From contig NZ_CP114778.1 of NCBI RefSeq assembly GCF_027359395.1, forward strand, positions 806,001 to 870,000: DNA of 64,000 bases, read 5' to 3'. The notes under the pieces were generated by a model that did no database searches, had not been told where the DNA came from, and worked only from the letters and a program-made list of their open reading frames with translations. Shown piece by piece: positions 14,414 to 60,815 of this stretch (its first letter is position 1; each line of letters starts with the position of its first letter). Origin of the DNA: Prochlorococcus marinus str. MIT 1013. Its GTDB lineage: Bacteria; Cyanobacteriota; Cyanobacteriia; PCC-6307; Cyanobiaceae. Both the position numbers and the translations under genes were made by a program.

Positions 14414-14554
14414 TTTCCTAAATTAGATCTTGTTTTGACAAAATATTAGATACCTGATATCTAATTAACAAATAAGGCACGTTATTTAAATTTCTTATAA
14501 ATATACTAACTATAATAACACTGATTTAGAAATCATGTCTTTACTAGCTCAAAA

Positions 14555-14752
14555 ATGCTTATCAGTAATCACACTAATGCATTCTTTACAGCAAGTCCTA
14601 AGACACCTAAGAGACGTAAAACACCTAAAACACCTGAAAAGAGCCATAAAAAGAAATAAAAATAATAGATATGAATAGATATAAGTAGTAAGTGTTCAAA
14701 AAAACGTGAGTCACCTAAGACACTTTTAATGTCCAACTACTCCACATGCAGT
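14555..14752. other. Possible replication-origin or helicase-end relic
   Basis: Holds CACCTAA/CACCTGA repeats at 14604, 14622, 14631 and 14712, an AT-rich tract, then AACGTGAGTCACCTAAGAC. Its right part (14650-14752) recurs inverted at 48306-48406. The layout resembles 52280-52440 downstream of the intact element's helicase. The repeats are also readable as the 34-residue tail of an ORF ending at 14659 (KTPKRRKTPKTPEK), so they could be coding remains. The rest of the 825-bp gap shows only a 42-codon ORF at 15044-15172. Confidence 0.4.
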
Positions 14753-15043
14753 AGGACATTTCCTCCTAATCGTTTGTTAGCAGTAGTTTTCGGTTGAAAA
14801 GATGTAAAAATTCGCAGAAGCGTTCGTAAAATCAGAAAATAAGGATAAAAAAACGCTTATAAAAAACACTTAAAAAGACGCTGATTTCTTACGTCGAGGT
14901 AGCTATTGGATAGTTAGTTGCGTAAGGAATAAAACTCAAGTCGACATGAGACTTCAAGAGGGGTTAGAAGAGACTAATCCTAGGTCTAGCTGCAAATAGC
15001 ATCCAATAGGAGCAGTAAAAACGTTCAAGCAGAACATCCATTT

Positions 15044-24846: not shown

Positions 24847-27039
24847 ATGAAAGGTTTAGGAGAGGAGCATAAATCTAAAAAGAAAATCAAACCATCTAAA
24901 GAACAAATAATAAATCAAGCATTTAAATTTCATTCAGAAGGGAACATATCAGAAGCATCAAAATATTATCAATATTTTATTGCACAAGACTATAAAGATC
25001 CAAAAGTTTTTTCTAATTATGGAATGATATTGAAAGGACTTGGTAAATTAAAAGAAGCAGAAGTCTTTTACCGCAAAGCAATTGAACTGAAGCCGGATTA
25101 TGCAATGGCTCATTCCAATCTTGGGAACACATTGAAAGATCTTGGTAAATTAAAAGAAGCAGAATTATCAACTCGAAAAGCAATTCAACTGAAGCCGGAT
25201 TACGCAATTGCTCATTCCAATCTGGGAAATGTATTGAAAGATCTTGGTAAATTAAAAGAAGCAGAATTATCAACTCGAAAAGCAATTCAATTTAATCCTG
25301 ATTTCGCAGAGGCTCATTCCAATCTGGGTAGCATTTTGAGAGATCTTGGTAAATTTAAAGAAGCAGAATTATCAACTCGGAAAGCAATCGAACTCAACCC
25401 TAATATCGCAGAACCATATGCCAATCTAGGAAGCATATTAAAAGATCTTGGTAAATTTAAAGAAGCTGAAATATCAATGCACAAAGCTATTCAACTCAAG
25501 CCTGATTACGCAATGGCGTATTCTAATCTGGGAGGCATATTAAAAGATCTTGGTAAATCAAAAGAAGCGCAAAGTTGTTTTCAAAAATGCCTTGAATTAG
25601 ATCCAGATGATCTAGCTTATAACATACAAGCTAAACTTTTCATATCAAAAATACCCTTAAATCAATTGCAAATAAATCAAGACAGAGAGGAGATAAATAG
25701 ACAAATATCATTAATAGGTAATAACAATAATATAATCTATAAAAATAATAGTTTACCAACAACAATAGACTTTATTTTTTATTTAGCCTATCATAATTGT
25801 TATAATGATAAAGAGATACTCCAAAATATAGCTAATAATTTATCAAAAAAGGATGGGATATTAAATACTAATTTCCGTTTAGACCAGCATATCAAAGAAA
25901 GTCAGGGAAGAAAAAGGATAAGACTCGGAATTTGTTCTAGCTATTTTTTTAATCATTCTGTAACGAAATGTTTTTTAAATTTAATTGAAGATCTTGCTAA
26001 ATCTGGAATTGAAATAATCATATTTAAAGGAGAACTTGATCATACTGATAAAACAACAGATCATATTATTTCATTAGCGAGTGAAATAATAACATTACCA
26101 GATTCCTTAGAAAAATCTTGTCAAAAAGTTCTAAATAGTTCAATTGATATTCTTCTATATCTTGATATTGGAATGTCAGTAAAAACATATTTCATGTCTT
26201 TATCAAGGCTAGCTCTAGTTCAAGTCCTTCATAGTGGACACCCACAAACTTCAGGTTCTCAAAATATGGATTACTACATAACCGCATCGCAAAAAGAAAA
26301 TGAGAATTCTGATAAGTTCTTTTCAGAAAGATTGATAAGAATGACTAGACTTCCAGTAAATTATAGTCTACCTACAATTTTAAATAGTACTATTAAAGCT
26401 TCAGATCTAGATATTTATGAGGATGATTTTATAATTGGACTTCCTCATACTTTATTTAAATACCACCCCGACTTTGATGATATTCTAGACAAAGTACTTG
26501 AGGAAATTCCTCATTCACGTTTATTATTTTTCGAAGGTGTTAGAGAATACAATACAAAGGAATTATTGTCCAGGTGGGAACAAAATAGTAAGTACATTTC
26601 AAGTAGATTAATAATTTGTCCACGTGTTAAATTTGATGATTATTTAACAATTTCAAAAAGATTTGATATCGTACTTGATACTATTTATTTTGGGATGGGT
26701 AATACCTTTTTTCAGGCAATGGCATTGGGTATTCCAGTTGTTACTTTGTTACCTGATAAACCACAAGGTGGATGCGTTTCTGCAGGTTATAAGCAGATGG
26801 GTATTTTAAATCCACCTATAGCAAAGTCAAAGAAAGAATATATTTCAATATGCAAAAAACTAGCATTTGATAATTCATACAGGGAGAATATTAGTAATCA
26901 AATACTTTTAAAAGCAAAAGATAATTTATTTAATGATCAAACAGTTTATAGACAGTATATAGACTTCTTTCAAAAGGCATTGAAAGCTGCATATAAAAAA
27001 GAATTACTTCCAAAAAATTGGGAACCATTTAAATACTAA
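24847..27039 (+). CDS. TPR protein with GT41 (OGT-like) glycosyltransferase domain
   Basis: 730 residues: a short Lys-rich N-terminus without the TFxVPFAL tag, about seven TPR units (residues ~18-250), then a GT-B domain from about residue 356. FNHSVTKCF, GHPQTSGSQNMDYYI, TLFKYHPDFDDI and DTIYFGMGNTFFQAMALGIP (near residue 610) are the GT41-like segments. The last 1816 bp are almost identical to the end of the gene at 60575, while the N-terminal TPR units differ. The likely action is transfer of a sugar to proteins; the donor is unknown. It has its own promoter. Loss of the tag sets it apart from the other members. Confidence 0.85.
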   Translation: MKGLGEEHKSKKKIKPSKEQIINQAFKFHSEGNISEASKYYQYFIAQDYKDPKVFSNYGMILKGLGKLKEAEVFYRKAIELKPDYAMAHSNLGNTLKDLGKLKEAELSTRKAIQLKPDYAIAHSNLGNVLKDLGKLKEAELSTRKAIQFNPDFAEAHSNLGSILRDLGKFKEAELSTRKAIELNPNIAEPYANLGSILKDLGKFKEAEISMHKAIQLKPDYAMAYSNLGGILKDLGKSKEAQSCFQKCLELDPDDLAYNIQAKLFISKIPLNQLQINQDREEINRQISLIGNNNNIIYKNNSLPTTIDFIFYLAYHNCYNDKEILQNIANNLSKKDGILNTNFRLDQHIKESQGRKRIRLGICSSYFFNHSVTKCFLNLIEDLAKSGIEIIIFKGELDHTDKTTDHIISLASEIITLPDSLEKSCQKVLNSSIDILLYLDIGMSVKTYFMSLSRLALVQVLHSGHPQTSGSQNMDYYITASQKENENSDKFFSERLIRMTRLPVNYSLPTILNSTIKASDLDIYEDDFIIGLPHTLFKYHPDFDDILDKVLEEIPHSRLLFFEGVREYNTKELLSRWEQNSKYISSRLIICPRVKFDDYLTISKRFDIVLDTIYFGMGNTFFQAMALGIPVVTLLPDKPQGGCVSAGYKQMGILNPPIAKSKKEYISICKKLAFDNSYRENISNQILLKAKDNLFNDQTVYRQYIDFFQKALKAAYKKELLPKNWEPFKY
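25214..27029. repeat. 1816-bp direct repeat, copy 1 (with 61221-63036)
   Basis: No insertion or deletion and only about four substitutions seen by eye (two change residues: Arg/Lys in SSRLIIC, Glu/Lys in YRENIS). It begins inside a TPR unit and ends within the last codons of the gene. Confidence 0.95.
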
Positions 27040-27836: not shown

Positions 27837-28235
27837 ATGATGAGTAGAAAACGAAATAAAGTGATTTTGAACCTTTTTGCATTTATCTTTGCAACTTGTT
27901 TTTCACTACTATGTTTTCATACAGAAATCTTATATGCCTCAGAAAGCAATCAACCTGATTTAGTCAAAAAAATCTCACAATCTTATACAAAGAAATTCTG
28001 CAATTCGATTGGATTTGGACTTTCAAAGGAAAGTGCTATGAAATTTTCAATAAAAGAAAATAATCAAGTATTTTACAAAAAAAAAGAGTTTAATAACATT
28101 AATAAAGAATTACTTGCAGAGACAATAGCTATATCAGTTGTTGAGAAATGTGGCTACCCTATCAACTTATCTGGAGAGAAAGGCATTCAAGAATTTAAAA
28201 GTTATTATATATCAAAAGAAAAAGAATACTCATAA
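27837..28235 (+). CDS. Secreted or periplasmic hypothetical protein
   Basis: 132 residues (131 if the second Met is used). A basic start and hydrophobic stretch (residues ~9-30, ending near LYASES) look like a signal peptide. The mature part contains two cysteines (KKFCNSIGFGLSKESAMKFS and VEKCGYPINLSGEKGI) that could form a disulfide. I recognise it as a picocyanobacterial conserved hypothetical. Function unknown. Confidence 0.65.
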   Translation: MMSRKRNKVILNLFAFIFATCFSLLCFHTEILYASESNQPDLVKKISQSYTKKFCNSIGFGLSKESAMKFSIKENNQVFYKKKEFNNINKELLAETIAISVVEKCGYPINLSGEKGIQEFKSYYISKEKEYS

Positions 28236-28312
28236 ACAAAGTATAAAACCAATATTTAGAAATCAATCTATTTTATAAAATAAAATTAAAGTTAATTCTT
28301 TTATTAATAAAT

Positions 28313-29980
28313 TCATATTTGCTCTATCATTCCAAATTTCTTTAACATTGACATGACTAATGGCTGCTTTTCAATAGATATTCCAATCTTAGATAAATCT
28401 TTAGTATCTAAGAATTGATTTTGATATAAATATTCTATTAGATTATCTATAGAAGTTCCAATGATAATCCTTGAAAGAGAATGATGTAACCTATGTCTAA
28501 TAAGATTAGGATTAACACTACTCACCTTTACTTTACTATTTTTTATTTTTATCTCATTAGTTCCATAATCTTTAAATAAATATTTAATAGATGGCATAGA
28601 GGCTCTGTGAGGCTTAGTTGAAATAGCTTTTGTTCTCTCAATATATAATTCTTCCCATAAATCCCGTAATTGTTTTTGTACTATATCCCAGGAAAATCTA
28701 AGTCTCCAATTTGTTTTTGCATTTACACCGATTTCAATTCTTTTTTGTGGATTCTTAGCAAGGAAAATCAGCCTTTCAGCCATTAAATTATAGTCTAAAC
28801 AAGTAGTCATACTTCTCAGACCAATCATATAATCATGATTTAGTAATCCTAATTGATATTGAATATCAATAAAATCTAATGAATTGTCTGTACCTAGGTA
28901 ATAAGTAGTTGGTATTAAATAACCGTTTTCTCCATCTAATACGAAGTCTTTATATCCGTTCCAATCACTAATAATAACTGGTAATTCTGCTGACATTGCT
29001 TCGACAACAGTTATGCCATAAGTTTCTTGAATATTATCAGATGGAGAAACAAAAACATCTGCAGCCATTAATGCCAATTCCTTTTCTTCTTCTGTAGCAT
29101 TTTTAACACCACCAAGCCTCTTTAAATTTAGATTTTTAGTGTTTATTGCTAAATCATTATATGCTTCTTCTGAATATTTATTATTAAAAACGCCACATTC
29201 CAAGAGTATAACATTCTTATCTTGACAGCTCATTGCAGTCTTAGAAACTGCCTGATAAATACTTAATGGATGAGCCTTAGCATGTGCGCATAATCTTCCT
29301 AAATATAAAATTATATAAGAATCCTTAGGTAGTTTTAAAGTATTTCTCGCTTTTATTCTTTTTTCTTGTCTAGTAGTACTGTTATCAGTTATGAAATCTT
29401 TTACTGCTAGAGGAATTATAGGTAATTTAATTGATTTTTTTTTAGGTAAAATCATATCAAATTTTTCTTCTAACGACTCATGATGATAATTTCTTATTCT
29501 TTCAACTACTTTTTTACCAGATGTCGAAGTGCAAATTAAAGCGTCCCAATCTTCGATAATACCTGTAACTGTATTTTGAATACATTGAATTGCTGATGTG
29601 CTACTTAATGTATGTATCATCCCTACAATAGAAAAAATATTGGATTTCATTCCAGATCTTAAAGCATTATATTTTATAATATTTGGATCTTGTATGAATA
29701 ATGTTTGCAGATCATTTCTTGAAAGTGTCGTAATAATATTTATTTTTGATTCTTTAGGTTTAATATCACATAACAATTTTTCTAATTTTTTTTTAGCTAA
29801 ATCGCTATCTGTAAATATATTTAATTGTTCGTTCTCTTTCAAGTTCCCAGTAATTCCTTTTACTACATTTAAACCCGCAACTCTCCTTCCCAATAATTGC
29901 TTGCTTGTTAAATCAAAACTATCCTCAGGTAATAATAATGTTGCCGCATAGTTTTTATAGTTTTTTTGAAAATCTTCCAT
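28313..29980 (-). CDS. Glycosyltransferase family 4 protein
   Basis: 555 residues, GT-B fold. YLGRLCAHAKAHPLSI opens the C-terminal donor domain near residue 215, and the GT4 signature is SPSDNIQETYGITVVEAMSAELPVIISDWNGYKDFV with the paired acidic residues. About 150 extra residues follow the catalytic core and contain no recognisable motif. It probably adds a hexose to a surface polysaccharide. It is a single gene on the minus strand, 330 bp upstream of which an rfbB pseudogene begins on the other strand. Confidence 0.85.
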   Translation of the reverse strand: MEDFQKNYKNYAATLLLPEDSFDLTSKQLLGRRVAGLNVVKGITGNLKENEQLNIFTDSDLAKKKLEKLLCDIKPKESKINIITTLSRNDLQTLFIQDPNIIKYNALRSGMKSNIFSIVGMIHTLSSTSAIQCIQNTVTGIIEDWDALICTSTSGKKVVERIRNYHHESLEEKFDMILPKKKSIKLPIIPLAVKDFITDNSTTRQEKRIKARNTLKLPKDSYIILYLGRLCAHAKAHPLSIYQAVSKTAMSCQDKNVILLECGVFNNKYSEEAYNDLAINTKNLNLKRLGGVKNATEEEKELALMAADVFVSPSDNIQETYGITVVEAMSAELPVIISDWNGYKDFVLDGENGYLIPTTYYLGTDNSLDFIDIQYQLGLLNHDYMIGLRSMTTCLDYNLMAERLIFLAKNPQKRIEIGVNAKTNWRLRFSWDIVQKQLRDLWEELYIERTKAISTKPHRASMPSIKYLFKDYGTNEIKIKNSKVKVSSVNPNLIRHRLHHSLSRIIIGTSIDNLIEYLYQNQFLDTKDLSKIGISIEKQPLVMSMLKKFGMIEQI

Positions 29981-30137
29981 TCTATAATTTATCTAAAGAT
30001 GAGAATAGATTAACCTATTTGGAAGATTTTATGAAATATTATTGATTAATTTTTATAGGAAATTGCCAACAAGAACTTTAATTATTTGGGATGTCAGATA
30101 AAATACACAAACAAATTAAAAAGATGTGTCCTTTTGG

Positions 30138-30535
30138 CTGAAATTCTTGTAACAGGTGGAGCTGGTTTCATATTAAGTCATTTCCTTGAGGTTATCCATA
30201 AAGAACAAGCTCTAAAATAATAGTTATTGATAACTTAAGTTATGCTGCAAATTTAGATAGTGTTCCAAGTAATAAACAAATTGAATTTGAATGGTGTGAT
30301 ATTAATAACGAAGAGCATGTTTATTACATTTTTAAAAAGCATAGGCCAACTAAAGTATATCATTTTGCTGCTGAAAGTCATGTTGATAAATCTCTAAAAA
30401 ATTAGAGGCCTTTTTTAGAGACTAATGTAATTGGAACAATAAATCTTTTAAATGCTTCTCTTTTAGTAGGAATTGAAAAATTTCATTTTATATCTACTGA
30501 CGAAGTTTATGTCTCATCAGATCATAAAGCTACGG
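30138..30535 (+). pseudogene. rfbB: dTDP-glucose 4,6-dehydratase remnant
   Basis: Reads ILVTGGAGFILSHFLE, then after a frameshift VIDNLSYAANLDSVPSNKQI, FHFAAESHVDKS-like YHFAAESHVDKSLKN, an in-frame TAG, and NVIGTINLLNAS and FHFISTDEVYVS. The Rossmann glycine motif and the TDE catalytic region are recognisable. It lost frame and then its last two thirds, and ends at the junction with the terminase-like fragment. An intact homologue stands at 63050. Confidence 0.85.
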
Positions 30536-30585
30536 TTGGATTAGCTGCTGATTCTTCATATAACAATCGAGTAAAAAAAATCTAG
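30536..30585 (+). pseudogene. Terminase-small-subunit-like 3' fragment
   Basis: Reads GLAADSSYNNRVKKI and a stop, like the end of the fragment at 45758. It abuts the 3' end of the next TPR gene with only 3 bp between stop codons. Confidence 0.65.
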
Positions 30586-30588
30586 TAA

Positions 30589-32169
30589 TCAATTTGGCAA
30601 CAGGTCAAATGCCATAACTATTCGATCAGTATCTGTAGAGAAAGGGATAGTTCTATGATGAAGAGAAGAGGGGAACAAAACTATATCCCCTGCTTCTGGA
30701 TGATGAATTAAATTGGGAGAGTTAATATTGGAATAATTCGGACCATTTAAACTAAATTCAATTGCCCCTTCATCCTTCCCTAGTGAAGGAACAACCTTTA
30801 AATAAATAACGCCACTTAGCCATCCAGAAGGATGTATATGTGCCTCTTGATATCCTTGCTTTTTAAGAATTACATGCCACGCCGTTAAATTTCTATTTGA
30901 TGGCCATTTTTGAATATAGGAACAAGATTCTTTTTTAAATTTTAAATAATAAGAATCTAATTCATTTAAAATGATTGATTTAAGATATGAAATATTTTCA
31001 GATGAGTTGGAAAATAAATTTATATGAGTAGGAGTTTGAAAACCATTACGAGTTGCTTTCTTTGATGGCTCCCAAATAGTTTTAATCTCAGCTAGCTCAT
31101 TAATTATTTTTTTTATATATTCATCATAATGTTTTAGATGAGATTTTAGATTTGAAAAATATAAAAATGAAATTGGATTCCTACAAAAATTATTAGATGT
31201 ATCTCTATGTTCCTTTGCTGAAATAAATGAAGCGAATGCAGCTAATCTTATATTTTCATTATCTATTTCTGACGTTTTTTCAATTCTCTTGTAAATCTCA
31301 TCAACCCTTCCAAGTGCATAAAGAGCTTCCAAAGCAAACGCCCTTGAGTTTTTTGTATTACAAGAATCTGAGTCTTTTAAGGCTCGTTCAAATTCTCCTC
31401 TTTCAAAAAGGAATTGCCATCTATTTTTTAATACAGAATATGAATTTGGACTCAAGGTAAGTGCCTTTGAGTAACATGCCTCTACCTCTTCGAATTTACC
31501 AAGATAGTTCAAAATAGATCCAAGATTGTTATAAGCATTAGCTAAATCAGGTTTAAGTTCAATTGCTTTTCGAGTAGATATTTCTGCTTCTTTTAGTCTT
31601 CCAAGATCTTTTAATATGTTTCCAAGATTGTTATGGGCAACAGCGAAATTAGGTTTAAGTTCAATTGCTTTGCGAGTAGATATTTCTGCTTCTTTTAGTC
31701 TTCCAAGATCTTTTAATATGTTTCCAAGATTGGAATAGGCTTTCGCGAAATCAGGATTAAGTTCAATTGCTTTTCGAGTGGATATTTCAGCTTCTTGTAG
31801 GTTTCCTCGATCCCATAATATATCTCCCAAATTATTATGAGCTTCTGGAAAATCAGGATTTAGTTTAATTGCTTTGCGTTGTAACAACTCTGCTTCTTCT
31901 AATTTGCCTAGATCTTTCAATATGACTCCATAATTAGAAAAAACTCTGTGATCAGTGAAACCTTGATTAATGAAATCTTGATAATATTTTGCTGCTTGTG
32001 AAATATTTCCTTGTGAATGAAACTTAAATGCTTGATTAATTATTTGCTTTTTAGACGGCTTCTTGGAGATATCGATAGAAGTAGAAATATTTTCTTTGCT
32101 TTCTTTTAAGGCGAATGGAACTGTGAATGTTTTTACTTCAGAGCCTTCTTGTTTTTGATTTCTTTTCAT
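30589..32169 (-). CDS. TPR protein with 2-oxoglutarate/Fe(II) oxygenase domain
   Basis: 526 residues. The tag VKTFTVPFALKESKENI is followed by about six TPR units (residues ~35-230), a variable middle, and a C-terminal 2OG-Fe(II) dioxygenase-like domain of the Oxy_5 type: HIHPSGWLSGVIYL supplies the first metal ligands, and GDIVLFPSSLHHRTIPF with the distal RIVMAFDL completes the site. Such domains hydroxylate proteins or small molecules. The start is ATG at 32169; the GTG and first codons used by sister genes are missing. It lies 96 bp after the carbamoyltransferase and is probably read from the same transcript. Its first 648 bp duplicate 34634-35281. Confidence 0.85.
   Translation of the reverse strand: MKRNQKQEGSEVKTFTVPFALKESKENISTSIDISKKPSKKQIINQAFKFHSQGNISQAAKYYQDFINQGFTDHRVFSNYGVILKDLGKLEEAELLQRKAIKLNPDFPEAHNNLGDILWDRGNLQEAEISTRKAIELNPDFAKAYSNLGNILKDLGRLKEAEISTRKAIELKPNFAVAHNNLGNILKDLGRLKEAEISTRKAIELKPDLANAYNNLGSILNYLGKFEEVEACYSKALTLSPNSYSVLKNRWQFLFERGEFERALKDSDSCNTKNSRAFALEALYALGRVDEIYKRIEKTSEIDNENIRLAAFASFISAKEHRDTSNNFCRNPISFLYFSNLKSHLKHYDEYIKKIINELAEIKTIWEPSKKATRNGFQTPTHINLFSNSSENISYLKSIILNELDSYYLKFKKESCSYIQKWPSNRNLTAWHVILKKQGYQEAHIHPSGWLSGVIYLKVVPSLGKDEGAIEFSLNGPNYSNINSPNLIHHPEAGDIVLFPSSLHHRTIPFSTDTDRIVMAFDLLPN
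31520..32167. repeat. 648-bp direct repeat, copy 1 (with 34634-35281)
   Basis: Encodes the tag and first five to six TPR units of two neighbouring genes; one mismatch seen. The copies are 3114 bp apart, an exact number of codons. Confidence 0.95.
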
Positions 32170-32265
32170 TAGTTTATAAACTTGAATAAAGCTTTAAACT
32201 TTCCATTCCTTGAGATTAAAATCTTGAGCAAAGATAAATTAAATAATTGATTTGGAATATTCATC

Positions 32266-33963
32266 TTAATCACGTGAAATTAAAATATTTCCTATGAATA
32301 AGCAGTCCAAGAACCCTAAGGAAAAAGAATGCAAGGCATCATTTGGCGATTCAACAATAGGCTCACCTGGTCGATTAAATGATGTATTTAATAAAATAGG
32401 AACACCTATAGTTTTTTCTACCTCTAAAAGCAAACAATACAAAATCTTATTCTGCTTTTTATTTACAGTTTGAACTCGCGCTGTTCCATCCACATGTTTA
32501 ATTGATAACAGTCTTTTATCCAAGACTTTTACATTTCTCATCATAACTGGCGAACTATCATTAATATCAAAAAACTGATTGGCTTGCTCTTCAATGACAA
32601 CTGGAGCATATGGTCGATATCTATCTCGACACTTCATTAATTGATCTAATAGATATTTGGTGGAAGTACTAAAAGGATTAGCGAAGATGCTTCTATTGCC
32701 TAGTGCTCTTGGACCAAATTCACTTCTGCCTTGAAACCATCCAAAGACTTTTTCTTGTTTAATCATTTCTGCAGCTCTGATATATAATTCATTTTGAGGA
32801 AGAACTTTATAACATAAATTGGATTTTAATACTTCCTCCATAATCTCGTCCTTATCATAAAGTCGACCATAATAATCTTTTATTATTGAAAATTTTCTAT
32901 CTAAACCCATATTTAAATTGGCTGCTATTCCCGCACCAATAGCTGTTCCATTATCTTCAACAGAACCATTTAGAATTATATTTTTAAAATAGTTACTTTG
33001 TTTAATACGTTCATTTGCTACTACGTTTAATGCAACTCCACCAGAAAGATATAAAGTATCAGTTGGAAATTCCTTCTTAAGTATATCTAGTAACTTTAAA
33101 ATTACATTTTCCGTTTCAACTTGTACTTTATGAGCTAGATTCTGATGGTGTTTGCTATTTGATAAATCTACACGGAAAATATTTGCCTTTTTATAAAGAT
33201 TATTAATTTTATTGAAGTCTAAATTAATTTCCCCATTCCCATTAATTGTCAGAAGATTGCCTTTATTAGATTTATCTTCTTTCCCAAATGCTGCTAAACC
33301 CATTACTTTCCCAGCTGAATTTCTTGATCCACAACAATATAAAGAAGCCCATTCCCAGTAATGGCCAATACTTTGTAGAAAGCCTTTTGAATTACAATTG
33401 TAATCATCAAGAGCAGACTGTGATGGACTAAATCGATAAATCAGGTAAACTTCTGACCCATCAAACCAATATGCAGAAATAACTTCCTTTCCAGAAAATT
33501 TCGTATGATTAATTATTTGTGAGTGATTTTTTTCATGTATATTGAATAGTGATCTATCTTCTTCTAATGATCCACTTCCATCAATTACCAATACTATTCC
33601 TGGCTTCTTATTCCCATAGTGAATAATATATTCCATATGAGCTAAATGATGTGGTACATAGAATGTGCCAAGAAAATTTTCTGGTACTCCACCTATATAT
33701 TGAAATAACTTCTCATTACTAATCTTCTGTACTTTCCATGGTGTTGAAAGAGCAATTGCATTTACATCTTTATATTTAAGACCTGAAGAGTTTAAACAGT
33801 ACTGTACGCATTTATGTGTTAACTCTATTTCTTTACCTAAAGGTAGGCTTTGACGTTTCTTGCGGGAAATACGTTCTGCTTGTATTGCTGCTTTCACTTC
33901 ACCATCACATATTAATGCGACACTCCCATTGTGGGTATTGCTAAAACCAAGAATTATGCTCAT
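32266..33963 (-). CDS. Carbamoyltransferase, NodU/CmcH family
   Basis: 565 residues. Transfers a carbamoyl group from carbamoyl phosphate to a hydroxyl, via carbamoyl-AMP. The N-terminal Kae1-like domain has NTHNGSVALI and the metal-site VPHHLAHMEY with VIDGSGS; the C-terminal YrdC-like domain has GWFQGRSEFGPRALGNRSI and LNTSFNRPGEPIVESPNDA. Full length. It sits between two TPR genes on the minus strand, 9 bp after the first and 96 bp before the second. The likely role is O-carbamoylation of a sugar in a surface glycan. A dead fragment of a relative lies at 20398. Confidence 0.93.
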   Translation of the reverse strand: MSIILGFSNTHNGSVALICDGEVKAAIQAERISRKKRQSLPLGKEIELTHKCVQYCLNSSGLKYKDVNAIALSTPWKVQKISNEKLFQYIGGVPENFLGTFYVPHHLAHMEYIIHYGNKKPGIVLVIDGSGSLEEDRSLFNIHEKNHSQIINHTKFSGKEVISAYWFDGSEVYLIYRFSPSQSALDDYNCNSKGFLQSIGHYWEWASLYCCGSRNSAGKVMGLAAFGKEDKSNKGNLLTINGNGEINLDFNKINNLYKKANIFRVDLSNSKHHQNLAHKVQVETENVILKLLDILKKEFPTDTLYLSGGVALNVVANERIKQSNYFKNIILNGSVEDNGTAIGAGIAANLNMGLDRKFSIIKDYYGRLYDKDEIMEEVLKSNLCYKVLPQNELYIRAAEMIKQEKVFGWFQGRSEFGPRALGNRSIFANPFSTSTKYLLDQLMKCRDRYRPYAPVVIEEQANQFFDINDSSPVMMRNVKVLDKRLLSIKHVDGTARVQTVNKKQNKILYCLLLEVEKTIGVPILLNTSFNRPGEPIVESPNDALHSFSLGFLDCLFIGNILISRD

Positions 33964-33972
33964 GATCTTATG

Positions 33973-35292
33973 CTATAAATTATTTATAAGGTTCATTAAA
34001 TTGCTTCTAGCTAAGTCTTTCTGATTGAATAATACAAGGCTTCTTCGAATAACAAGCCAACCAAGATCTTCTGTTGCATTATCTTTTAATAGGATCTTGG
34101 ATGCCTGAATGTTATGTGAGGCTAAATCTTCTATCTCTGAAAACTCTCTTTTTAAGAATTTATACTCGCAGAAACCTAACGTTAGTAATATTTTATCCTT
34201 ACTAACAGCTGATTCTAAAACCTCATGTAAATCATAGCTGTCAAATACATACTTAATTAATTTATTTATGTCATTATTCCTTTCCTTTATTATTAATAAA
34301 TTTAAAAAGATTGACAGCAGCTTATGTAGAGAATTCTGATTAACTAGTTCCATACTAAAATTACACCAAAGTTTAATAAATTCATTTACATTGTCTGTAG
34401 TAAATTTAGGAGAATTATTGCAAATTTCTTCTAATAAAATCTTTGATTTTTCCCAATCGCAATCATTTATACTTTCCATTAAGATTTTATTTTTTATCAA
34501 AGGATATCTATAAAAATCTGATATTTCAAGACCTGCTTTAATACGATATCCTGCGTTTTTGGGGTCAATCTTATATGCTTTATTATAACTTATAGTCGCT
34601 TCATTATACCTTCTAAGATCTATCAATATATTTCCAAGATTGTTATAAGCATTAGCTAAATCAGGTTTAAGTTCAATTGCTTTTCGAGTAGATATTTCTG
34701 CTTCTTTTAGTCTTCCAAGATCTTTTAATATGTTTCCAAGATTGTTATGGGCAACAGCGAAATTAGGTTTAAGTTCAATTGCTTTGCGAGTAGATATTTC
34801 TGCTTCTTTTAGTCTTCCAAGATCTTTTAATATGTTTCCAAGATTGGAATAGGCTTTCGCGAAATCAGGATTAAGTTCAATTGCTTTTCGAGTGGATATT
34901 TCAGCTTCTTGTAGGTTTCCTCGATCCCATAATATATCTCCCAAATTATTATGAGCTTCTGGAAAATCAGGATTTAGTTTAATTGCTTTGCGTTGTAACA
35001 ACTCTGCTTCTTCTAATTTGCCTAGATCTTTCAATATGACTCCATAATTAGAAAAAACTCTGTGATCAGTGAAACCTTGATTAATGAAATCTTGATAATA
35101 TTTTGCTGCTTGTGAAATATTTCCTTGTGAATGAAACTTAAATGCTTGATTAATTATTTGCTTTTTAGACGGCTTCTTGGAGATATCGATAGAAGTAGAA
35201 ATATTTTCTTTGCTTTCTTTTAAGGCGAATGGAACTGTGAATGTTTTTACTTCAGAGCCTTCTTGTTTTTGATTCCTTTTCCCCTCAGTCAC
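33973..35292 (-). CDS. TPR protein with unknown helical C-terminus
   Basis: 439 residues. GTG start at 35292 gives the full tag (MTEGKRNQKQEGSEVKTF). Six to seven TPR units (residues ~38-250) are followed by ~190 residues of unknown type, with DCDWEKSKILLEEICNN and a C-terminal LGWLVIRRSLVLFNQKDLAR. The end looks helical and TPR-like, so it may be an adaptor without an enzyme domain. It is first in a probable operon with the carbamoyltransferase and the TPR-oxygenase. The first 648 bp are duplicated in the last of these. Promoter at 35326. Confidence 0.8.
   Translation of the reverse strand: MTEGKRNQKQEGSEVKTFTVPFALKESKENISTSIDISKKPSKKQIINQAFKFHSQGNISQAAKYYQDFINQGFTDHRVFSNYGVILKDLGKLEEAELLQRKAIKLNPDFPEAHNNLGDILWDRGNLQEAEISTRKAIELNPDFAKAYSNLGNILKDLGRLKEAEISTRKAIELKPNFAVAHNNLGNILKDLGRLKEAEISTRKAIELKPDLANAYNNLGNILIDLRRYNEATISYNKAYKIDPKNAGYRIKAGLEISDFYRYPLIKNKILMESINDCDWEKSKILLEEICNNSPKFTTDNVNEFIKLWCNFSMELVNQNSLHKLLSIFLNLLIIKERNNDINKLIKYVFDSYDLHEVLESAVSKDKILLTLGFCEYKFLKREFSEIEDLASHNIQASKILLKDNATEDLGWLVIRRSLVLFNQKDLARSNLMNLINNL
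34634..35281. repeat. 648-bp direct repeat, copy 2 (with 31520-32167)
   Basis: See copy 1. Recombination with copy 1 would delete 3114 bp and join this gene's promoter and start to the oxygenase domain in frame. Confidence 0.95.
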
Positions 35293-35325
35293 ATCTATTG
35301 TTTTATAAAGAATTTATTTATTAGG

Positions 35326-35331
35326 ATTATA
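35326..35331 (-). promoter_or_regulatory. TPR-family promoter -10 box
   Basis: TATAAT on the minus strand in CATATAATCCTAATAAATAA, 33 bp before the GTG start. Confidence 0.55.
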
Positions 35332-35421
35332 TGTCTGATTAGGGTTTTTAGTTTTCAACTACAAAAAGAAATTCACCCGTTGTAAAAAGCATGAGAAAAT
35401 ATCTTTTTTGAAGGAAAGTAA

Positions 35422-35583
35422 TTAGTCCAGACCTATTGAAAATAAGAGCGTTTGGTAATTACCTACCGCTTTTTCTTCGGCTAAAACTTCTTCCCCTTCG
35501 TTAATAGTGTCGGGAACTTTATCAACTTTAGGTAGTGAAGTATAATGCTTAGGTTGCCTGAGATTGATTGCGATCACTTTCAT
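35422..35583 (-). CDS. Possible small ORF in the TPR leader
   Basis: 53 residues, N-terminus MKVIAINLRQPKHYTSLPK. The same start recurs in the other leader copies (minus strand before 40190 and 45540, plus strand from 60285), but their ends differ by frameshifts or a sequence junction, so it may be a decaying gene once divergent from tRNA-Ala. It contains the tRNA promoter on the opposite strand. Confidence 0.3.
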   Translation of the reverse strand: MKVIAINLRQPKHYTSLPKVDKVPDTINEGEEVLAEEKAVGNYQTLLFSIGLD

Positions 35584-35594
35584 GTTAACGATTT

Positions 35595-35645
35595 GGAGCC
35601 ATAGCTCAGCTGGTAGAGCACCTGCATGGCTGCAGACCCTGAAAA
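35595..35645 (+). repeat. tRNA-Ala 5' half, relic 1
   Basis: GGAGCCATAGCTCAGCTGG and onward to the anticodon arm, with one base lost in the anticodon loop; the 3' half is absent. It is preceded by the same 60-bp promoter segment (TATAAT 45-50 bp upstream) as the other relics. The gap to 35944 shows nothing else apart from two TGCGCA boxes at 35698 and 35710. Confidence 0.9.
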
Positions 35646-35944
35646 CCGCTAAAAGCATTGAAGTGAGTGGGATATTAGAACACTGAAAAACAAATAATGC
35701 GCATAACGTTGCGCAATTATAATATAGTATTTAGCTCTAATAAATGTAACATATCCTTTGTTCTGACTTGAGATTTGCCTCTTTTTATTTATATCTTAAT
35801 CACTAATTGACAGATAGAAGAGCCTCAAATGCATATCCAACATCGAAAATTAAAACTAATTCTCTCTTAAACACCAGCAGGCAATCTCAGCTTTTCTTAT
35901 TTTACGCGGTGTTTAGTTCTAAATATATTGTTTTTGTTGATTAT

Positions 35945-37801
35945 TTATGAAATCAGGTCTCGATATTTTTTAGTTTGAATAAGAATTTTAATAGCAGGTT
36001 TCATCATCTCTTTGTAGTTCTTCCATCCACCAACAGATTTTGAATTAATAGGGAAACGAACTTGAACAGTGCTTGCTGTAGAAACAGAACGTGGATTTAA
36101 ATGAGGCGATAGATATAAATCATCCCAATGCCAACCTAACCAAGAGATCAAAGATTTAATTTCTTTATTAGGATTGCTGACTAATAAATCATAATCTAAG
36201 TCGTATATTTTTGATCTGAATCTATTCTTATATTCTGTCATTATTTCATCTTGATATAAATAAACTCTTGTGCAATCGACTAAGGAAGAAGAATATTCAT
36301 TTCCTCTGGCAAAATGTGCTCGATAAATTGAAAGAATATTATCTAAAGGATTTCTAAAACAATGAATGATTTTTGCGTTTGGTATTTTCTTAGCAATGAT
36401 ACCTGTGTATTGATAATTAAATAGATTTTTATTAGTTGTAATATTGGCTTTTTTCCTAAGATCTTTAATTTTTTTCCAATACACTTCAGCAAGAGTTAAT
36501 TCTTGATCAACTTTTTTACTCTCTAGGAAAGATTCCTCAAGGTTCATTCTTTCCCCCAAATCATTCACGCTAGTATTCATACTAAGAATTGATTCCAATA
36601 ATGTAGAACCACTTCTAAACATACCCACAATAAAAATACTCTCAGGGAATTTCGCGTGTTCTTGTTGATTAATTTCCAGCTTATCAGATTCAATAAGTAA
36701 AGCTTTAGATTTATTAAATATCATCTCAGGTTTAGATGGTTTTACCTCCAGTTTAAGGTTATTTGCTAATTGAAGGTATTTTGAACTTTCTTCGTATTTT
36801 TTTTCTTTATGAAGAATATTTGCTCTTGCAAAGTAAATATCAATTTGATCTTTTTGTGATTGATTTTTTAAGATACTTTCAGAAAATAGTTTATCCTTCC
36901 ATAATGTATTTTTATTGGAGTATTTAAGATCCGAAAGAGATAAATATGGTGCAGCAAAATCAGGATTAAGTTCAATTGCTTTGCGAAGGAATACTTCTGC
37001 TTCTTCTAAACTGCCCTTCTCTTTTAACATTCCTCCTAGATTATTATGCGCTTTTGCGTGAGTAGGATTGAGTTCAATTGCTTTGCGAGTTGAAAATTCT
37101 GCCTCTTTTAATTTGCCTCGAGTATTCAATATGATTCCCAAATTGTAATGCGCTTCAGTTAAATCAGGATTAAGTTCAATTGCTTTGCGTTGTGATAATT
37201 CTGCCTCTTTTAATTTGCCACGAGCATTCAATATGTTACCCAAATTGTAATGCGCCAAAGCTAAATCAGGATTGAGTTCAATTGCTTTGCGTTGGGATAA
37301 TTCTGCTTCTTTTAACTTGCCAAGATCATTCAATATGCTTCCAAGATTGGAATGCGCTTCAGCAGAATTAGGATTAAGTTCAATTGCTTTGCGTTGGGAT
37401 AATTCTGCTTCTTTTAACTTGCCAAGACCTCTCAAGATGTTTCCAAGATTAGAATGCGCTTTTTCATAATCAGGATTGAATTCAATCGCTTTACGGTAAA
37501 AAACTTCTGCTTCTTTTAATTTACCAAGTCCGTTCAATATCATTCCATAATTAGAAAAAACCTTATGATTATTACATCCTTGATTTATTATCTGTTGATA
37601 TAATTTTGCTGCTTCTGCAATATTTCCTTGTGAATGAAGCTTAATTGCTTGATTAATTAGTTCCTCTTTGCAAGGTTTAGATGGCGTGTTTGTATTAATA
37701 GTAAGATTTTCTTGGTTTCCTCTTAAAGGAAATGGCACTGGGAATGTAATTAATTCATAGACTTTCGTTTTCCATTGGTCTTTTTTTCTAGATTGGTCCA
37801 T
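35945..37801 (-). CDS. TPR protein with C-terminal sulfotransferase domain
   Basis: 618 residues. The tag is a variant (VYELITFPVPFPL). About eight TPR units (residues ~42-310) and a linker lead to a PAPS-dependent sulfotransferase domain. The phosphosulfate loop is FIVGMFRSGSTLLESILS near residue 387, and the 3'-phosphate-binding segment is IIHCFRNPLDNILSIYRAHF; a C-terminal RFPINSKSVGGWKNY completes the fold. This resembles tyrosylprotein-type sulfotransferases, so a protein or glycan target chosen by the TPR is plausible. ATG start at 37801. It is separated from the next TPR gene upstream by a 271-bp gap with no gene. Confidence 0.86.
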   Translation of the reverse strand: MDQSRKKDQWKTKVYELITFPVPFPLRGNQENLTINTNTPSKPCKEELINQAIKLHSQGNIAEAAKLYQQIINQGCNNHKVFSNYGMILNGLGKLKEAEVFYRKAIEFNPDYEKAHSNLGNILRGLGKLKEAELSQRKAIELNPNSAEAHSNLGSILNDLGKLKEAELSQRKAIELNPDLALAHYNLGNILNARGKLKEAELSQRKAIELNPDLTEAHYNLGIILNTRGKLKEAEFSTRKAIELNPTHAKAHNNLGGMLKEKGSLEEAEVFLRKAIELNPDFAAPYLSLSDLKYSNKNTLWKDKLFSESILKNQSQKDQIDIYFARANILHKEKKYEESSKYLQLANNLKLEVKPSKPEMIFNKSKALLIESDKLEINQQEHAKFPESIFIVGMFRSGSTLLESILSMNTSVNDLGERMNLEESFLESKKVDQELTLAEVYWKKIKDLRKKANITTNKNLFNYQYTGIIAKKIPNAKIIHCFRNPLDNILSIYRAHFARGNEYSSSLVDCTRVYLYQDEIMTEYKNRFRSKIYDLDYDLLVSNPNKEIKSLISWLGWHWDDLYLSPHLNPRSVSTASTVQVRFPINSKSVGGWKNYKEMMKPAIKILIQTKKYRDLIS

Positions 37802-38072
37802 TTATACTTTTCTATCTTTTGATACTTCGCATTTTACTACTAATACTGCAATCATTGTTATTTAATTATGCGTGTCATAAAGTAGCATCCTTTTCAATTA
37901 TTCCCTACGATATCTCTAAGATAATGCCGTCTTCGATAATCTTGAGTTTTTAATCATTTTTATTAATTTCATACGAGTTTCATACAAGATTTCAACATTA
38001 TAAAATACCAGATTTATTCAGTTATAATATTGCATCCTGGCCTTTCTATATTTAGAGTTATATTGAGTGGAA

Positions 38073-39896
38073 TTAAATTGTTGTTTTCTGGTTTTGATTA
38101 GAATGAAAACCTCTATTCAAATAATTCAATATTTTTGGACCTTTTATTTGTTCATTAGTAATTTTATTTACACTTTGATCTCCTATCTTTTGCGCATATG
38201 CGATCCAGTTTCGGATTACAAGAAAGTTATTTAAATTAAACCCCTCAATACTTTTGGTTGATTTACCCCAATTTTTATTACCTTGATCGATTTCTTTTTC
38301 GATGCTTCTCCAATTTTCATTATAATTCATTGGTTGATCTCCAGATATATTTATTTCTTTGTATTTTGGGAATTCTAGTGGATATTCAGAACAACCTCTT
38401 TTTACTTTGGATATTAAATCAATTCTAATATTATTTTGAATATGAAGATTCAACTCTTTAGATATTTCTAATGCCTCACTTAGGCCTAAGCAATATATCA
38501 ATCCTTTATAGAATCCAGAAACATTAGTTCTTAACTCGACCATACATTTTCTAGTATTGTAATTCTTAAGTTCTAGTGTGTTGAAAACTAGAAATAGTTT
38601 GATTAATTCAATTATTGAATTTACTTCAACTTGTACTTTATAACATCCAAAGCAAAATTCAGGAATTATTTTATGCTGTTTAAAAATTAGCATATGCCTT
38701 TTACAATTTAAATTTATTTCATTACATTTATATACTTGTGACAAAGATGTTTCTAGATCCAAATTATATCTTCTATAAATTTCTAGTCCATCCTTATAAA
38801 GTTGTATTGCTTCTAAATCAGTTATAAGATAGTTATCTTGTTTGCGAAGAATGAGATCTCTAAATTCTTTGTCTATTATATATAATGGATTTGAATTAAT
38901 GTTTTTTACTTCGTATATAGTTAGTAAATTTAGTAAATTAACTTTAATATTTTGATTGTCAGGATCGAGTTGAATTGCTTTGCGTTGTGATAATTCGGCC
39001 TCTTTTAATTTGCCAAGATCTCTCAATATGCTTCCAAGATTAGAATGCGCCATTGCGAAATCAGGTTTGATTTCAATCGCTTTAAGAGTAGATAATTCTG
39101 CTTCTTCTAATCTTCCAAGATCTCTCAATATGCTTCCCAGATTAGAATGCGCCATTGCGTAATCAGGATTGAGTTCAATTGCTCTGCGTTGTGATAATTC
39201 TGCCTCTTCTAATTTGCCAAGATCTCTCAATATGTTGCCTAAATTGTAATGCGCTTCAGTTAAATTAGGATTCAGTATAATTGCTTTGCGTTGTGATAAT
39301 TCTGCCTCTTTTAATTTGCCAAGATCTCTCAATATGTTGCCTAAATTGTAATGCGCTTCAGTTAAATTAGGATTGAGTTCAATTGCTTTGCGTTGGGATA
39401 ATTCTGCCTCTTTTAATCTACCAAGATCATTCAAAATGCTTCCAAGATTAGAATGCGCCATTGCGAATTCAGGATTGAGTTCAATTGCTTTGCGTTGGGA
39501 TAATTCTGCCTCTTTTAATCTGCCAAGATCTCTCAATATGTTTCCCAGATTGGAATGTGCTTTTGGGTAATCAGGATTCAGTTTAATTGCTTTACGATAT
39601 AAGATTTCTGCTTCTTCTGATTTGCCTAGATTTTTTAATATTGCTCCATAATTAGTAAAAACTCTGTGATCATTAAACCCTTTATCAATAAAATATTGAT
39701 AAAGTTTTGCTGCTTTTTGAATATTTCCTTGTGAATGAAACTTAAATGCTTGATCAATTATTTGTTCTTTAGAAGGTTTAGTTTTGCTATTGCTAGGAAT
39801 AGAAATATTCTCTTTTATTTCTCCTAAAGCAAATGGAACTCGAAATGTTTTTACTTCAGATCCTTCTTGCTTTTGATTCCTTTTCCCCTCAGTCAC
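38073..39896 (-). CDS. TPR protein with unknown Cys-containing C-terminal domain
   Basis: 607 residues, GTG start at 39896. The tag (SEVKTFRVPFALGEIKENI) and about nine TPR units (to residue ~325) are followed by a ~270-residue domain I cannot assign. Visible marks are LNCKRHMLIFKQH, IPEFCFGCYKVQVEV, ELRTNVSGFYKGLIYCLGLS and VKRGCSEYPLEFPKYKEI. The CxxC next to a Cys/His pair could bind a metal. I have the impression that this domain recurs in other picocyanobacterial TPR proteins, but cannot verify it. Its leader and first ~240 bp match the gene at 60575. Confidence 0.8.
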   Translation of the reverse strand: MTEGKRNQKQEGSEVKTFRVPFALGEIKENISIPSNSKTKPSKEQIIDQAFKFHSQGNIQKAAKLYQYFIDKGFNDHRVFTNYGAILKNLGKSEEAEILYRKAIKLNPDYPKAHSNLGNILRDLGRLKEAELSQRKAIELNPEFAMAHSNLGSILNDLGRLKEAELSQRKAIELNPNLTEAHYNLGNILRDLGKLKEAELSQRKAIILNPNLTEAHYNLGNILRDLGKLEEAELSQRRAIELNPDYAMAHSNLGSILRDLGRLEEAELSTLKAIEIKPDFAMAHSNLGSILRDLGKLKEAELSQRKAIQLDPDNQNIKVNLLNLLTIYEVKNINSNPLYIIDKEFRDLILRKQDNYLITDLEAIQLYKDGLEIYRRYNLDLETSLSQVYKCNEINLNCKRHMLIFKQHKIIPEFCFGCYKVQVEVNSIIELIKLFLVFNTLELKNYNTRKCMVELRTNVSGFYKGLIYCLGLSEALEISKELNLHIQNNIRIDLISKVKRGCSEYPLEFPKYKEINISGDQPMNYNENWRSIEKEIDQGNKNWGKSTKSIEGFNLNNFLVIRNWIAYAQKIGDQSVNKITNEQIKGPKILNYLNRGFHSNQNQKTTI

Positions 39897-39929
39897 ATCT
39901 ATTGTTTTATAAAGAATCTATTTATTTGG

Positions 39930-39935
39930 ATTATA
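39930..39935 (-). promoter_or_regulatory. TPR-family promoter -10 box
   Basis: TATAAT in CATATAATCCAAATAAATAG on the minus strand, 33 bp before the GTG start; identical to the copy at 60536. Confidence 0.55.
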
Positions 39936-45416: not shown

Positions 45417-45488
45417 TTTACCGCAGATTTACCGCAGAATCTACCGCACATTGGGTATATCTGGGTGTATTTGGGTATATTTGAGTGG
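45417..45488. repeat. Two tandem-repeat sets beside a tRNA-Ala relic
   Basis: Set 1: TTTACCGCAGA twice and TCTACCGCACA, also found twice near 40302-40318. Set 2: 10-bp phased units TGGGTATATC (45452), TGGGTGTATT (45462), TGGGTATATT (45472) and a partial TGAGTGG. They have the look of integrase or excisionase arm sites of lost elements. Confidence 0.7.
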
Positions 45489-45547
45489 TGAAGTATAATG
45501 GTTATGTTGCCTGAGATTGATTGCAATCACTTTCATGTTAACGATTT

Positions 45548-45586
45548 GGAGCCATAGCTCAGCTGGTAGAGCACCTGCATGGCATG
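45548..45586 (+). repeat. tRNA-Ala 5' half, relic 3
   Basis: 39 nt to the anticodon loop (ending CATGGCATG), then fused to the terminase-like fragment. Confidence 0.9.
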
Positions 45587-45758
45587 AAGCACTTCAAATC
45601 ACCGCAAAGCTACTCGTAAATCTTGAACAAGGTTATGCAACAAAAACTGGTTCATAACCAATCAAGTGGTGTTGCTTGCTGCCTGCGCTAGACAAATAAT
45701 TTCACTGGCTGGATTAGCTGCTGATTCTTCATATGACAATCGAGTGAGAAAAATCTAG
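45587..45758 (+). pseudogene. Terminase-small-subunit-like 3' fragment
   Basis: Reads, with frameshifts, like the last ~55 codons of the gene at 40753 (AKLLVNLEQG, NQSSGVA, ARQIISLAGLAADSSYDNR) and ends at a TAG at 45758. It is directly fused to the tRNA relic and points at the 3' end of the TPR gene. Confidence 0.8.
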
Positions 45759-45806
45759 TAATAATTCTATTTACCAAAAATAATAGTTTTATAAAATCAC
45801 TTTGGA

Positions 45807-48050: not shown

Positions 48051-48100
48051 TTTTCCCCCTCAGTCACATTTATTTGTCTATAAAGGATCTAATGATTAGC

Positions 48101-48106
48101 ATTATA
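48101..48106 (-). promoter_or_regulatory. TPR-family promoter -10 box
   Basis: TATAAT in AGTTATAATGCTAATCATTA on the minus strand, about 50 bp before the ATG. Confidence 0.6.
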
Positions 48107-57548: not shown

Positions 57549-57554
57549 TATAAT
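57549..57554 (+). promoter_or_regulatory. TPR-family promoter -10 box
   Basis: TATAAT in AAGTTATAATCCTAATAAAT, 33 bp before the GTG start. Confidence 0.6.
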
Positions 57555-57587
57555 CCTAATAAATAGATTCTTTATAAAACAATAGAT

Positions 57588-60014: not shown

Positions 60015-60062
60015 TCCAAAGTGATTTTATAAAACTATTATTTTTGGTAAATAGAATTATTA

Positions 60063-60234
60063 CTAGATTTTTCTCACTCGATTGTCATATGAAGAATCAG
60101 CAGCTAATCCAGCCAGTGAAATTATTTGTCTAGCGCAGGCAGCAAGCAACACCACTTGATTGGTTATGAACCAGTTTTTGTTGCATAACCTTGTTCAAGA
60201 TTTACGAGTAGCTTTGCGGTGATTTGAAGTGCTT
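60063..60234 (-). pseudogene. Terminase-small-subunit-like 3' fragment
   Basis: Part of the inverted repeat, same content as 45587-45758. Confidence 0.8.
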
Positions 60235-60273
60235 CATGCCATGCAGGTGCTCTACCAGCTGAGCTATGGCTCC
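60235..60273 (-). repeat. tRNA-Ala 5' half, relic 4
   Basis: Reverse-strand copy of relic 3. It is followed by a switch from the 45.5-kb-type to the 40.1-kb-type upstream sequence inside GTGAAGTATAAT, a recombination junction. A small start MKVIAINLRQ is again present at 60285. Confidence 0.9.
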
Positions 60274-60320
60274 AAATCGTTAACATGAAAGTGATTGCAA
60301 TCAATCTCAGGCAACATAAC

Positions 60321-60815
60321 CATTATACTTCACTACCTAAAGTTGATAAAGTTCCCGACACTATTAACGAAGGGGAAAAAGTTTTCCCGAAGAAAAAGCG
60401 GTGGGTAATTAGCAAATGCTTTTATTTTCAATAGGTCTGGACTAATTACTTCCCTTCAAAGAGAAATCAACTCATGCTTATTTACAGCGAGTGAATTTCT
60501 TTCTGAAGTTAAAAACTAAAAACCCTAATCAGACATATAATCCAAATAAATAGATTCTTTATAAAACAATAGATGTGACTGAGGGGAAAAGGAATCAAAA
60601 GCAAGAAGGATCTGAAGTAAAAACATTTCGAGTTCCATTTGCTTTAGGAGAAATAAAAGAGAATATTTCTATTCCTAGCAATAGCAAAACTAAACCTTCT
60701 AAAGAACAAATAATTGATCAAGCATTTAAGTTTCATTCACAAGGAAATATTCAAAAAGCAGCAAAACTTTATCAATATTTTATTGATAAAGGGTTTAATG
60801 ATCACAGAGTTTTTT
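60321..60815. repeat. 495-bp inverted repeat (with 39656-40150)
   Basis: Covers the leader, promoter, tag and first TPR unit. It ends at AGAGTTTTT inside the second TPR unit, where the match passes to the sequence type of the genes at 33973 and 30589. Confidence 0.9.
60536..60541 (+). promoter_or_regulatory. TPR-family promoter -10 box
   Basis: TATAAT in CATATAATCCAAATAAATAG, same as the copy at 39930. Confidence 0.55.

Follow-up and report, generated by a model that had tools for sequence, protein, structure and literature searches.

Exchange of protein C-terminal ends (C-ends) of the kind considered here is best known from toxins. Passages of PMC3967940 describe in Salmonella a conserved Rhs front with an alternative C-end downstream, the orphan, and propose fusion of main gene and orphan by homologous recombination through 522 bp of 95% identity. 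Islands with many alternative MafB C-terminal cassettes occur in Neisseria, where genome comparisons support recombinational replacement, as reported in passages of PMC4287609. A resemblance of another kind is offered by FlmG and OGT, GT41 glycosyltransferases with a tetratricopeptide repeat (TPR) array beside a catalytic C-end; the TPR domain of FlmG was tested for flagellin binding, the outcome lying outside the passages available (PMC7591256). The present analysis concerns a stretch of 64,000 bp (the window; positions 806001-870000 of the one-contig, 2.05 Mb genome of Prochlorococcus marinus str. MIT 1013; window G+C 32%), in which two neighbouring TPR genes with unlike C-ends, gene 1 and gene 2, share near-identical direct repeats on either side of a carbamoyltransferase gene. 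The repeat is probably a recent ectopic gene-conversion tract within a large paralogous family, lying in a trio of genes that has been kept, and fusion by deletion would be only a possible by-product.

Prochlorococcus is among the most abundant photosynthetic organisms on Earth. TPR proteins are enriched in its low-light members (PMC11357015) and TPR genes are among the frequent accessory genes (PMC7779031). The abundance of TPR genes remarked on in both papers is found here too; their available passages are concerned with photosystem II assembly or annotation only and contain no shared leader, C-end exchange or conversion tracts. Titles and abstract openings in the literature, a weak source because subscription journals are mostly uncovered, gave no account of C-end exchange in Prochlorococcus TPR genes.

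The repeat pair and its three genes

The trio and the two copies of the repeat are arranged as follows:

30589-32169, minus strand: gene 2, with the same leader/TPR block as gene 1 and a 2-oxoglutarate (2OG)-Fe(II) oxygenase end, ATG start (PF13759, 76.9 bits, cut-off 27)
32266-33963, minus strand: NodU/CmcH-type O-carbamoyltransferase, between both TPR genes (PF02543 and PF16861 above cut-off)
33973-35292, minus strand: gene 1, with leader, five TPR and an all-helical C-end of unknown function, GTG start (no Pfam match in the C-end; model all helix)
31520-32167, minus strand: repeat copy in gene 2 (offset comparison; one mismatch, at 32161)
34634-35281, minus strand: repeat copy in gene 1, covering the leader, TPR 1-4 and the start of TPR 5 (offset comparison; 649 bp with 34633)

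The earlier note on this DNA had described repeats of 648 bp with about one mismatch, 3114 bp apart, and direct offset comparison of 31519-32167 with 34633-35281 bears this description out. The blocks are 648 bp long, or 649 bp counting 34633, and 99.8% identical; the sole difference, at 32161, is silent (AGA against AGG, both Arg). Their edges are abrupt, with 17 of 30 bases matching at 31491-31520, two of these bases belonging to the block, and 8 of 30 at 32181-32210. Because the runner-up match of the 648-bp block across the whole genome has only 80% identity, the likeness of the pair is far above the family background. The block starts 11 nt into the coding sequence of gene 1 and 2 nt into that of gene 2. 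Scripted joining of the gene 1 front with the gene 2 end gave a single frame of 1590 bases with a final stop only (529 aa), and the geometry proposed for an in-frame fusion of the gene 1 start to the oxygenase end is thereby upheld. Decisive for such a fusion is the same reading frame of both copies, rather than 3114 being a multiple of three. Divisibility of the offset was considered as a requirement and found irrelevant, the corresponding repeat in the compared genome G006 having an offset of 3281, no multiple of three, although both genes there carry it in phase.

Gene 2 is a complete open reading frame (ORF) of 526 aa with its own ATG in addition to the leader/TPR block. The suggestion that it had lost its own promoter and first codons holds in part: the conserved 5' element described below is absent upstream of gene 2 in a pattern search of the window, and the frame with its ATG is entire. 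A 12-base palindrome, AGTTTATAAACT, was spotted by eye at 32171-32182, one base ahead of this ATG, and may be due to chance. PF13844 (GT41) is not listed for gene 1 or gene 2 in the Pfam scans, in which it is listed for paralogues, and the carbamoyltransferase scores 125 bits with the NodU equivalog, under the cut-off of 1000 bits. The gene 1 product may be a scaffold beside the gene 2 oxygenase, since its model, apart from a disordered 38-residue leader, consists of helices only (mean predicted local distance difference test score 85.9, shallow alignment of four sequences). Among the 50 matches listed in a fold search with the whole protein, not with the C-end alone, most are OGT, SPINDLY and other TPR superhelices.

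The order TPR gene with a gene-1-type end, carbamoyltransferase and TPR oxygenase has also been identified in G006 and in a Hyphomicrobiales record (L069); G numbers denote genomes, G000 being the one that holds the window and the others compared with it, and L numbers denote sequence records. The genome G012 and a Pelagibacteraceae record (L070, gene-1-type C-end 31% alike) possess the gene-1-type end and the carbamoyltransferase with no oxygenase following. At the DNA level the two TPR genes of the trio share leader/TPR blocks of 649 bp (99.8%) in G000, 406 bp (94.8%) in G006 and 362 bp (88.4%) in L069, the last beginning 18 nt upstream of the first codon. The front parts of these two genes are 95% (G000), 67% (G006) and 79% (L069) identical as proteins within the organism, whereas between organisms the identity is 35-49% for front parts, 43-56% for gene 1 C-ends, 62-67% for oxygenase ends and 68-71% for carbamoyltransferases. 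From these sequence comparisons we infer that the within-genome likeness of the fronts was renewed separately in each organism and that the trio was held together, which speaks against gene 2 as a spare cassette. The recurrence of the order also suggests that all three genes are used together.

Elsewhere in the genus, 13 other genomes have the oxygenase end, at 14 places in all and with 63-83% identity; G014 has in addition a partial copy that is broken. The trio is present at one of the 14 (G006) and no carbamoyltransferase occurs in the stretch read at 10; at the remaining three (G035, G040, G020:C23) the contig stops at or just before the gene, leaving the upstream side unseen. In G006 (record L052), three pilin-like genes starting with GFSLIEL (3607-4518, 13186-14892 and 15514-16500) flank the trio on both sides and are possible candidate acceptors of modification; a single motif search of the G000 stretches gave no such gene.

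Tracts, mosaics and 5' ends in the TPR family

The members of the family are built from a leader, a TPR array with a period of 102 bp (34-codon unit) and a variable C-end. An 88-position leader/TPR1 profile gave 39 matches in G000 and was matched in 38 of the 41 genus genomes, 1 to 44 times apiece. In a family-level sample, 31 of 201 genomes had matches, 10 of them in the genus and the remaining 21 with 1-5 each. According to Pfam, the C-ends of scanned members are GT41, sulfotransferase or 2OG oxygenase ends, or have no match above cut-off. Near-identical tracts link members of the family in each of the four closed genomes studied (G000, G004, G005 and G006), with start-to-start distances of 1.8 to about 650 kb. 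They are both direct and inverted in G000, G004 and G005, the single tract of G006 being direct, and none was seen in G001 and G031, of which fragments only were compared. The paralogues, mosaic genes and long tracts of the window are:

24847-27039, plus strand: paralogue with a GT41-type end and an unlike leader (ORF list, Pfam, comparison)
35945-37801, minus strand: paralogue with a sulfotransferase end (PF13469)
38073-39896, minus strand: paralogue with a C-end of unknown kind (Pfam scans)
45807-48050, minus strand: paralogue with a C-end in the class containing GT41 ends (C-end classing)
57588-60014, plus strand: mosaic paralogue whose 5' end matches gene 1 at 99% over 131 bp and whose C-end resembles that of the gene at 45807-48050 (tract comparison)
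60575-63043, plus strand: mosaic paralogue, 5' end like the gene at 38073-39896, C-end of GT41 type like the gene at 24847-27039 (tract comparison)
58418-60333, plus strand: 1916-bp tract, 99.95% identical to 45488-47403, inverted, 13 kb apart, one mismatch, extending beyond the stop codon (tract search)
45488-47403, minus strand: partner of the 1916-bp tract (tract search)
25214-27029, plus strand: tract of 1816 bp repeated directly at 61221-63036, 36 kb away, with 99.7% identity (tract search)
61221-63036, plus strand: partner of the 1816-bp tract (tract search)

Further tracts of G000 measure 1021 bp (99.8%, direct, 7.8 kb apart), about 1.5 kb (98-99%, inverted, 135 kb apart, running from the end of one member across a small ORF into the start of the following member), 630 bp (98.4%, inverted, 21 kb apart) and 524 bp (98.7%, direct, 1.8 kb apart). 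A hand count of the tract list gives ten tracts, 150 bp or longer and 97% or more identical, that cover a leader in part or whole; six of them join genes within about 4 kb, five being direct (G000 twice, G004, G005, G006) and one inverted (G004), and the other four are more distant. In G004:C1:803800-811083, with three successive members at 803800, 806460 and 809389, the middle one matches the third in its front block (1035 bp, 100%) and the first in its C-end (1260 bp, 97.8%). In G005, at C1:1402772-1420862 and 770475-772136, the C-ends of several members are alike in short perfect patches interrupted by unlike bits, which is a typical mark of conversion. Two side observations were made in G000: crossing-over between 25214-27029 and 61221-63036 would remove 36 kb, and an ORF outside the window (G000:C1:1178379-1179172), adjoining another TPR island, consists of tandem repeats of about 72 bp that are about 98-100% alike.

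The 5' ends follow genomic place, and the C-ends are largely uncoupled from them in the three closed genomes G000, G004 and G005, with partial coupling in G004. For the 5' 170 nt, taken before the leader motif, the nearest relative lies in the same island for 23 of 33 members in G000, 26 of 36 in G004 and 24 of 36 in G005 (8.3, 10.4 and 11.6 expected by chance; p at most 0.0007). These numbers refer to 33 of 39 profile-picked ORFs in G000 and 36 of 40 in each of the other two, C-ends below 100 aa and members with too little upstream sequence being left out; G006, with 13 ORFs, is too small for a test of place or C-class. A first 5' test in G000 had used 34 ORFs, five without a leader matching the regular expression being omitted. 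The nearest 5' relative belongs to the same C-class in 7 cases in G000, 13 of 36 in G004 and 5 in G005, with G004 alone exceeding chance. When genomes are compared with one another, no more than 6 of 59 best-hit pairs of C-ends (threshold 60% aa or more) also have the best 5' end in common (2/19, 2/17, 2/23). By their 5' ends, 6 of 6 members of island G000I4 map to G004I3 and 6 of 6 to G005I4, 10 of 15 members of G000I1 map to G004I1 and 8 of 15 to G005I1, and those of G000I2 mostly map to the same islands as G000I4, island synteny not having been tested.

Two other island markers were tried and rejected. The whole leader, first codons included, gave 13 of 35 in G000 (8.3 expected, p 0.07), for which 39 ORFs had been picked by hand, less three whose C-ends were short and one that lacked a leader. 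The leader without the first codons gave 7 of 33 in G000 (8.2 expected), 23 of 36 in G004 (10.3 expected, p 0.0005) and 19 of 36 in G005 (11.6 expected, p 0.018). The island signal is thus clear in all three genomes for the 5' 170 nt only.

A 28-base 5' element (TATAAT...TTCTTTATA) has been identified ahead of five family members of the window; shuffles predict 0.01 matches, the genes counted being also those that had supplied the pattern. A promoter scan was uninformative (17 sites, 27 in shuffles). The pattern matches are:

35304-35331, minus strand: 5' element 11 nt before gene 1
39908-39935, minus strand: 5' element before the paralogue at 38073-39896
48079-48106, minus strand: 5' element with three mismatches before the paralogue at 45807-48050
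57549-57576, plus strand: 5' element before the paralogue at 57588-60014
60536-60563, plus strand: 5' element before the paralogue at 60575-63043

Origin of the repeat

The paralogues within a genome are more alike than the orthologues between genomes and the tracts end abruptly, as is expected of gene conversion. Homologous recombination would copy the leader/TPR block from one of the two genes onto the other, in either direction, and the exchange would be mostly non-reciprocal, because not only direct tracts occur but also inverted and distant ones. The 34-codon unit of 102 bp would keep exchange from unit to unit in frame. Over time, the 5' ends (promoter region and first codons) would remain tied to their place and the C-ends would move among them. 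The two TPR genes of the trio may be kept alike repeatedly through their nearness or, by analogy with FlmG, through both proteins requiring the same docking part. The general idea of the earlier note that front parts and C-ends recombine in this family is supported by tracts, mosaics and uncoupling.

Several points weigh against gene conversion or limit it. The trio block of G006 begins about 50-60 codons into the genes, whose extreme 5' ends are unlike. In G004 the 5' ends are partly coupled to C-classes (5.2 expected for the 13 of 36, p 0.005) and the C-ends, too, go with place (23 of 33 against 9.5 expected, p 0.0002), more weakly so in G000 (12 of 27, 6.8 expected, p 0.06) and G005 (15 of 31, 10.0 expected, p 0.08). 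TPR arrays as general exchange seams hold in G000, where they contain 8 of the 9 tract ends that lie within ORFs of the family (3.5 expected, p 0.002), and fail when the four genomes are pooled (14 of 46, 16.9 expected); in view of this lack of pooled enrichment, the arrays are not the sole exchange points. The detailed comparison covers four genomes only, with family genes taken from fetched stretches rather than whole genomes, and the docking role is argued by analogy alone. Similar traces would be expected from tandem duplication or if mosaics were imported ready-made, and the trio could descend from one ancestral duplication, though its within-genome likeness is too high for duplication alone.

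The recombination switch proposed in the earlier note is considered very doubtful; through it, 3.1 kb would be lost by crossing-over from one direct repeat to the other, and part of the population would carry the gene 1 promoter and start joined to the oxygenase end. The geometry and frame of the repeats agree with it, as does the lack of the 5' element before gene 2; the Rhs fusion is a precedent (PMC3967940), and leader/TPR blocks that are direct and near-identical are likewise shared by neighbouring members in G004 (1035 bp), G005 (1008 bp), G006 (752 bp) and once more in G000 (524 bp). The complete ORF of gene 2 and the order kept in the two other organisms speak against a silent downstream cassette, and the carbamoyltransferase and gene 1 C-end, once lost, could be restored only from a duplicate or by import. 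The deleted form was sought among the genus relatives and none was recognised from the flanks of the 14 oxygenase-end places; no recombinase was present among the seven neighbouring proteins scanned, nor any inverted repeat of at least 40 nt, the length sought, in 28000-38000. Since tracts just as young occur elsewhere in inverted orientation or with distant partners, copying accounts for them better than deletion does, and a dedicated switch is not favoured. That one gene was doubled by unequal crossing-over or tandem duplication and one C-end replaced afterwards is unlikely. The three successive genes of G004 have the layout expected of a duplication product, but their halves differ in age (100% and 97.8%), for which one event is insufficient, and the unlike flanks on both sides of the window repeat demand extra precise replacements.

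Formation of the mosaics in other cells, followed by horizontal transfer and homologous recombination with little or no exchange in this chromosome, is distinctly unlikely. The trio in the Hyphomicrobiales record and the carbamoyltransferase with its gene-1-type neighbour in the Pelagibacteraceae record place these genes across phyla, which agrees with import, but tracts of 99.7-100% inside one genome point to copying in the cell or to very near kin. A viral carrier was not found either: none of 47 pattern matches in IMG/VR viral contigs was related to the leader profile family. An assembly artefact, with reads of one gene collapsed onto the other, is extremely improbable; long identical repeats are a known risk, but the genome is a single contig, both copies have unlike flanks and one difference, and repeats of the same kind occur in G004, G005 and G006. 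Ectopic gene conversion thus remains the favoured explanation, in which deletion to an in-frame fusion would be a possible by-product and not the main function.

A wider proposal is put forward tentatively, the balance being against it: in Prochlorococcus genomes up to about 40 place-bound 5' sockets, each a promoter region with first codons, might be continually refitted, often via TPR arrays, with enzyme ends (GT41, sulfotransferase, 2OG oxygenase and others), giving combinatorial modification of proteins or the surface. Neighbours with direct repeats might then fuse by deletion in single cells, and foreign clusters might be domesticated when local TPR fronts overwrite their own.

Comparison with known systems

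If gene conversion is the correct explanation, genomes of the richest members give dozens of genes to a modular family of enzymes in which C-ends change places more readily than promoters do. By this route, which is open to testing, modified proteins or the cell surface could be altered quickly, and whole-gene orthology calls on these TPR genes would mislead.

The Rhs system of Salmonella is similar in its conserved front, alternative downstream C-end, direct near-identity of about 0.5 kb and fusion by homologous recombination. However, as described in the passages available, its orphan is a fragment without a start and its toxin ends have immunity genes (PMC3967940), whereas here gene 2 is complete, the ends matched in Pfam are modifying enzymes and the trio recurs. 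More generally, the conserved N-part with interchangeable C-ends of Rhs/Maf/Cdi-type systems is found in the TPR family. A downstream C-end fragment lacking a translation start is not, and the scanned ends have no toxin match, immunity genes not having been searched for as such. Like the MafB cassettes of the passages in PMC4287609, the TPR genes form islands with many alternative C-ends, and genome comparisons support recombinational replacement. In contrast to them, the family has up to 44 profile matches per genome in several islands, its ORFs possess their own leader and TPR array, and no toxin end was recognised among those scanned. With the TPR-GT41 glycosyltransferases of PMC7591256, as far as its passages go, it shares the TPR array beside a catalytic C-end, of GT41 type in some members; here, the same type of leader/TPR block is paired with sulfotransferase, 2OG oxygenase, GT41 and unknown ends, which are exchanged. 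The TPR family itself is a set of paralogous genes undergoing conversion, and it is unusual in that its 5' ends are bound to their place and its enzyme ends move more.

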